A stretch of DNA of 64,000 nt from Candidatus Avelusimicrobium gallinaceum (GTDB taxonomy: Bacteria; Elusimicrobiota; Elusimicrobia; Elusimicrobiales; Elusimicrobiaceae), in assembly GCA_944324965.1 (NCBI GenBank), contig CALUYH010000003.1, positions 62,001 through 126,000 on the forward strand, read 5' to 3'. Both the position numbers and the translations under genes were made by a program. Below are positions 59,752-60,078 of this stretch, one piece after another (position 1 is the stretch's first letter; each line of letters begins with the position of its first letter). The notes beneath the pieces are model-generated. The model searched no databases. It saw only the letters and a program-made list of their open reading frames with translations, and had not been told where the DNA came from.

Positions 59752-59780
59752 TTTACAACCATACACAAAATTTGTATAAT
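59752..59780 (+). promoter_or_regulatory. Strong promoter of the 29-aa peptide gene, with possible operator
   Basis: TTTACA, exactly 17 bp, and TATAAT. An inverted repeat ACACAAA/TTTGTGT (about 59763-59787) encloses the -10 box and could bind a regulator. Confidence 0.75.
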
Positions 59781-59837
59781 ATTTGTGTAAAGAAAAACCG
59801 GGGCTTGCCCCAAACAAAATTTAAACAGGAGGATAAA

Positions 59838-59927
59838 ATGACCAAGATTCTGGAAAAGATGGCTGAAGCGTTGGCTAAAGTTGGCGAAAACGTCAGCGGC
59901 GCTCACTACATGATCAGCAAGAAATAA
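59838..59927 (+). CDS. 29-residue peptide gene with structured 3' region
   Basis: The ATG follows a perfect AGGAGG site at the usual spacing. The frame encodes a 29-residue peptide (MTKILEKMAEALAKVGENVS up to residue 20) whose first 20 residues form an amphipathic helix; the last nine are GAHYMISKK. It has no Cys and no signal peptide. A near-consensus promoter, a leader hairpin (GGGGC-TTG-CCCC) and a terminator at 60034 make it an independent unit. The N-terminal pattern loosely recalls AgrD-type prepeptides but the Cys/Ser ring and C-terminal recognition part are missing. Function unknown. Confidence 0.55.
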   Translation: MTKILEKMAEALAKVGENVSGAHYMISKK

Positions 59928-60033
59928 CCGGGCAGCCGTAAAGACTACCCAATGTGCAGTTTGCAGCCGGCCAGACGTTCGCCGGCGAACAGGGGAAGAA
60001 AATTTCTTCCGCCTGTCTAAAACGGCCAAGCGG
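59928..60033 (+). ncRNA. Structured 3' region of the small peptide transcript
   Basis: About 105 nt between the peptide stop and the terminator hold several pairable segments: GCCGG/CCGGC near 59967-59990, and a nested hairpin ACAGG...CCTGT enclosing GGAAGAAA...TTTCTTCC near 59989-60015. No gene is present. It could be a functional RNA with the peptide as leader or a dual-function RNA. Confidence 0.4.
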
Positions 60034-60062
60034 ACCATAAAGTAAAACTTTATGGTTTTTTT
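60034..60062 (+). terminator. Terminator of the small peptide unit
   Basis: Ten-base-pair stem ACCATAAAGT/ACTTTATGGT with an AAA loop and a run of T residues followed by ATG. Confidence 0.85.
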
Positions 60063-60078
60063 ATGCCCTTTTTCCCCA

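Follow-up and report, generated by a model that had tools for sequence, protein, structure and literature searches.

The question raised by this locus is whether a 300-base stretch, for which an independent unit, made up of a genuine peptide and a structured RNA, had been predicted from the DNA letters alone, is a gene, and how such a gene would work. The window (that is, the whole 64,000-nucleotide stretch of DNA that was analysed) is part of contig C3 in a genome (1.49 Mb) of Ca. Avelusimicrobium, a genus of gut Elusimicrobiota formerly named UBA1436. The stretch is a genuine, previously undescribed tiny gene of this genus; both the peptide and the structured RNA were borne out, and neither is described in any of the libraries searched. 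A new and well-supported family of microproteins, whose RNA architecture is conserved, is thereby added to the Elusimicrobiota, a gut phylum for which a literature search found no RNA-biology work.

The promoter, the inverted repeat around its −10 element, the leader hairpin, the AGGAGG Shine–Dalgarno (SD) sequence, the 29-codon open reading frame (ORF), the ~100 nt of hairpins that follow it and the terminator were all found at the positions originally predicted (Table 1). The transcript as a whole folds better than its shuffled versions (z = −2.7), and terminator-like hairpins, differing in sequence, are located at the equivalent place in relatives. The TTTACA-17/18-TATAAT arrangement is retained by most relatives within the window's clade. 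The inverted repeat exceeds shuffles in the window copy (fraction 0.01) and is common only to the window genome and its nearest relative (L016); it was therefore rejected as a conserved operator. It could be a recent one.

Table 1. Features of the unit, in window positions; the transcript start is inferred, being placed 7 nt past the −10 element.
Feature	Position	Strand	Remarks
Promoter	59752-59780	+	−35 TTTACA, 17-nt spacer, −10 TATAAT; consensus matches 11/12
Inverted repeat TACACAAA / TTTGTGTA flanking the −10	59762-59769 / 59782-59789		8-bp arms
5′ leader with hairpin and SD	59787-59837	+	about 51 nt
GGGG/CCCC leader hairpin GGGGCTTGCCCC	59800-59811	+	
SD AGGAGG	59827-59832	+	
Microprotein ORF MTKILEKMAEALAKVGENVSGAHYMISKK	59838-59927	+	29 aa; ATG at 59838 to stop at 59927; homologues in 38/66 genus genomes
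3′ three-way-junction RNA	59956-60026	+	fold kept in 35/38 copies
P1 of 3′ RNA	59956-59962/60020-60026	+	
P2 of 3′ RNA	59966-59971/59981-59986	+	
P3 of 3′ RNA	59987-59999/60005-60018	+	bulged G at 60011
Intrinsic terminator	60032-60064	+	stem CCATAAAG/CTTTATGG at 60032-60058, then T run

An absence of conservation in close relatives had been named in the original prediction as the result that would tell against it. In a tblastn-type search, homologues of the peptide were found in 38 of 66 congeneric genomes, with the RNA fold retained in 35 of these 38 copies, and the unit thus survives; elsewhere in the phylum (341 genomes), across which such a search had been proposed, no homologue was apparent. 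The homologues are from 28 to 33 aa long. Profile A1 recovers the same 38 among the 66 congeners at E ≤ 2e-15, the next match being at E 0.09. Five residues (A9, G16, N18, G21 and Y24) are invariant among 32 sequences, and the dN/dS of the peptide is from 0.08 to 0.17 within four clades. By its pattern of substitution, the ORF encodes a bona fide small protein under purifying selection.

When ~85,000 species were scanned with a sequence pattern, no homologue emerged beyond Elusimicrobia (29 of the 30 matches were confirmed, and those with informative titles were all from Elusimicrobia). As judged from these searches, the gene is restricted to the genus Ca. Avelusimicrobium. A mobile or viral origin of the unit was rejected, since no homologue was found in the viral contigs, phages and plasmids searched. 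No credible match of the peptide was present in Pfam, NCBIfam, PHROGs, PADLOC or PDB, the best one in Pfam being at E 0.02 and in 4 of 32 members. A 15-residue local likeness, of the peptide to IAEALVKVGDNVxGA (E from 0.001 to 0.01 per genome), concerns the N-terminal Rossmann helix of MurC (IAEVLINLGHNVSGSD). This likeness comes from distant Elusimicrobiota genera (L138 and L140), is absent within the genus and is no stronger than a search of such size would be expected to yield; kinship with the first Rossmann helix of MurC is probably a matter of chance.

The window peptide is predicted to form an amphipathic helix (μH 0.64, above 99.9% of shuffles), with a net charge of +2 and a GRAVY of −0.11. 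Among the peptides tested, GRAVY is from −0.05 to −0.29 and the best 19-mer Kyte–Doolittle value from 0.38 to 0.99; no transmembrane segment was found by hydropathy, nor was any signal sequence for secretion. The AlphaFold2 model of a 33-aa homologue, built from a single sequence, consists of a single helix (residues 7–32; mean pLDDT 88). L5, A9, L12, G16 and V19 share one face of the helix, and the small residues on this conserved face suggest, if the modelled helix is taken as a guide, tight helix packing.

In the carriers, the unit is located at one site, almost always between the divergent nadB and a pilin gene that is usually convergent; in one carrier (L091), nadB is not adjacent to it. 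Among the 28 peptide-less genomes, nadB was located in 24 (the match in G064 being weak and partial). In most of the peptide-less loci read (L108–L130, region upstream of nadB; flanks judged by eye), nadB adjoins a pilin gene of the same type and the whole unit is gone. On a nadB tree rooted at its midpoint, the carriers form clusters in each of the two deep clades; the carrier label requires four changes, three of them forced by well-supported branches. Since nadB mostly lies directly beside the pilin gene where the unit is missing, the unit was probably ancestral to the genus and then lost cleanly several times, as gene order and tree suggest; a transfer into this one site could also account for the pattern, less simply than ancestral presence followed by losses. 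The repeated loss indicates that the unit is dispensable. Several clean losses at one site also constitute a natural experiment, in which function is testable by comparing carriers with non-carriers. No neighbouring gene covaries with the unit. Gene order on the right side varies by clade: past the pilin gene there are PTS-like genes (IIA-type and IIC-type) in the clade of group B (L094, L096, L097, L099-L101, L103, L105 and L106), and a second pilin gene plus a helicase gene at the window.

A CUCC anti-SD, forming at least six Watson–Crick pairs with the SD region, is present in 31 of 38 leaders, versus a comparable anti-SD in 0 of 25 GGAG-type genes of the window that served as control. Partition-function folding predicts the SD to be largely paired with the leader and largely free once the leader is taken away. 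Many of the individual anti-SD shuffle fractions range from 0.002 to 0.1 and the copies are mutually related, thus the strength of the anti-SD rests on its retention in both deep clades. The window copy and its closest relatives have no anti-SD and carry AGGAGG instead, so that, on comparison of the leaders, the anti-SD is lost in this part of the genus. This SD-sequestering leader and its loss here, like the genus restriction, the syntenic site and the clean losses, had formed no part of the original prediction. The leaders of L019, L022-L031, L036 and L044-L046 share a conserved motif, GATAAGAAG...CTCCTTATC, with two mutually exclusive predicted folds, one being a hairpin of its own and the other leaving the CUCC freed for the SD. 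By eye, 12 of 14 pairs are formed in the window between the 3′ arm of P3 and the ribosome-binding site; as a general mechanism such pairing was rejected, since group B does not retain it and has the leader anti-SD in that role instead.

The three-way junction is positioned right behind the ORF, with P2 abutting P3 and with a one-base bulge on the 3′ side of P3. Model R1 matches at 89.3 bits at G000:C3:121956-122026, where the window copy is a member by construction. Among the 11 sequences of group B, 95% of the cells pair, both-side changes are seen in 19 cells versus 6.3 in shuffles, and all five pairs of P1 show a both-side change somewhere. In group A (23 sequences), there are 9 both-side-changed cells versus 3.0 in shuffles, a less telling result because the sequences are too conserved. 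Compensatory changes in the hairpins, proposed beforehand as a check, are thus clear in P1, the outer helix, of group B and weaker in group A. A common family of the two groups by model score alone was rejected: R2 matches the group A copies at 20–34 bits, and antisense hairpins of group B score as high (22–41 bits). Their kinship is therefore argued from what they have in common, namely where they lie, how they are laid out and an A-U/G-C change in P3 that is compensatory. When RNAalifold was run on the joint alignment, P3 alone was recovered, since P1 and P2 of the two groups are not aligned with each other. At gathering score, Rfam 15 has no match in the window or in seven relatives, and its near-match Mahella-1 scores 20 bits versus the 70.7 required. 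A CsrA-sponge RNA was considered and set aside, the window genome (~90% complete) being without CsrA.

Whether this RNA would act on its own mRNA or on others is the point at which the main alternative has to be weighed. No RNA at a comparable score was found away from the peptide among the 66 genomes, 28 of them peptide-less, and three species (G063, G076 and G081) retain the peptide without the 3′ RNA; a role in cis is therefore favoured. (An R2 match of 31 bits in a peptide-less genome, G022:C27:325-392, occurs on both strands, falls inside the range of the antisense artefacts and is probably an unrelated hairpin.) The same observations count against a dual-function RNA, in which the peptide would act as a protein and the 3′ junction, whole or clipped, would regulate other mRNAs in trans. 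Moreover, neither Hfq (PF17209) nor ProQ (PF04352) is recognisable in any of the 66 genomes of the genus, thus any RNA regulation must use other means. What speaks for a dual-function RNA is the retention of the fold in nearly all copies, an architecture resembling that of VcdRP, and P3, whose stems are nearly invariant in sequence. Such conservation exceeds what structure alone requires, so that P3 may base-pair in trans or bind a protein. On balance we regard a dual-function RNA as rather unlikely. A fuller version, in which a helix-binding microprotein is joined to a trans-acting 3′ sRNA and the leader anti-SD switches between the two outputs without Hfq or ProQ, appears distinctly unlikely.

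The leader brings a second alternative into view, as type I toxin mRNAs are typically folded and have their SD sequestered (PMC6733600, PMC11228461). The unit would then be a translation-silent mRNA, with a leader that sequesters the SD and a structured 3′ end, for a small membrane-active helix, silenced by an antisense RNA, with which the sequestered SD of 31 of 38 relatives, the positively charged amphipathic helix and the patchy loss of the unit are consistent. Like aapA3, timP, zorO and tisB, it combines an SD-sequestering structure with a peptide of ~30 aa. Unlike them, it encodes a peptide that is neither hydrophobic nor transmembrane, whereas membrane-associated type I toxins are hydrophobic (PMC8309996), and no antisense RNA promoter is conserved at the locus (6 of 38 copies have weak, chance-like matches at scattered positions). 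Furthermore, the gene is single-copy, its G/N/G/Y pattern is invariant and the SD lock is gone from the window copy. A type I toxin, judged the less likely option from the outset, is improbable for the reason then given, the peptide not being hydrophobic, as well as for the missing antisense promoter.

A secreted peptide signal or cyclic autoinducer of the AgrD type is very improbable. With AgrD precursors the peptide shares its shortness, an amphipathic N-terminal helix and a short charged tail, a likeness in layout only; however, AgrB was found in 0 of 66 genomes (by a search whose sensitivity is partly shown, the control set having few Agr carriers), the thiolactone/lactone residue is not conserved (neither a Cys nor a tail Ser), and there is no signal sequence, no match in NCBIfam or Pfam and no exporter among the neighbours. 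A leader peptide or attenuator acting on a downstream gene, as the nested hairpins and the terminator behind a small ORF might suggest, is barely credible, since in nearly all carriers the next gene is the convergent pilin on the minus strand, which together with the terminator leaves nothing downstream to attenuate, and the strongly selected peptide sequence has no regulatory codon run. Among the options first listed, the dual-function RNA thus retains some probability, and the leader peptide and the Agr-kind signal are not supported.

The explanation we prefer, and hold with modest confidence to be probable, is a microprotein gene that stands alone and is specific to the genus, its mRNA being riboregulated and the 3′ RNA of that mRNA acting mainly in cis. 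A strong sigma-70-type promoter would start the transcript and its own terminator would end it, yielding an RNA of ~275 nt, from which a non-secreted, mostly helical peptide of 28–33 residues would be translated. The conserved stripe of L5, A9, L12, G16 and V19, followed by N18, G21 and Y24, resembles a close helix-packing surface, so the peptide probably functions through binding to itself or to a single partner protein, perhaps on the surface of the membrane. The leader CUCC would, in most species, pair with the SD and keep translation low, until this lock is opened by a signal, a processing event or a partner RNA; in the window's clade, the lock would have been swapped for the open, stronger AGGAGG. 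The 3′ three-way junction would most likely act in cis on its own mRNA, in protection or processing of the 3′ end.

Among known systems, SgrS/SgrT, RNAIII/hld and SR1 are dual-function RNAs that, like the present unit, harbour a small ORF within a structured small transcript; the unit is absent from Rfam and has no sequence, targets or regulators in common with them. VcdRP of Vibrio cholerae is a dual-function RNA that encodes the 29-aa VcdP, which binds citrate synthase, and carries a base-pairing 3′ part (PMC8672173). Unlike VcdRP, to which it is unrelated in sequence, the unit belongs to a genus without Hfq or ProQ and its RNA is not seen without the ORF; the likeness is one of architecture only, consisting of a short stand-alone transcript, a 29-aa soluble small protein, a structured 3′ part and a terminator.
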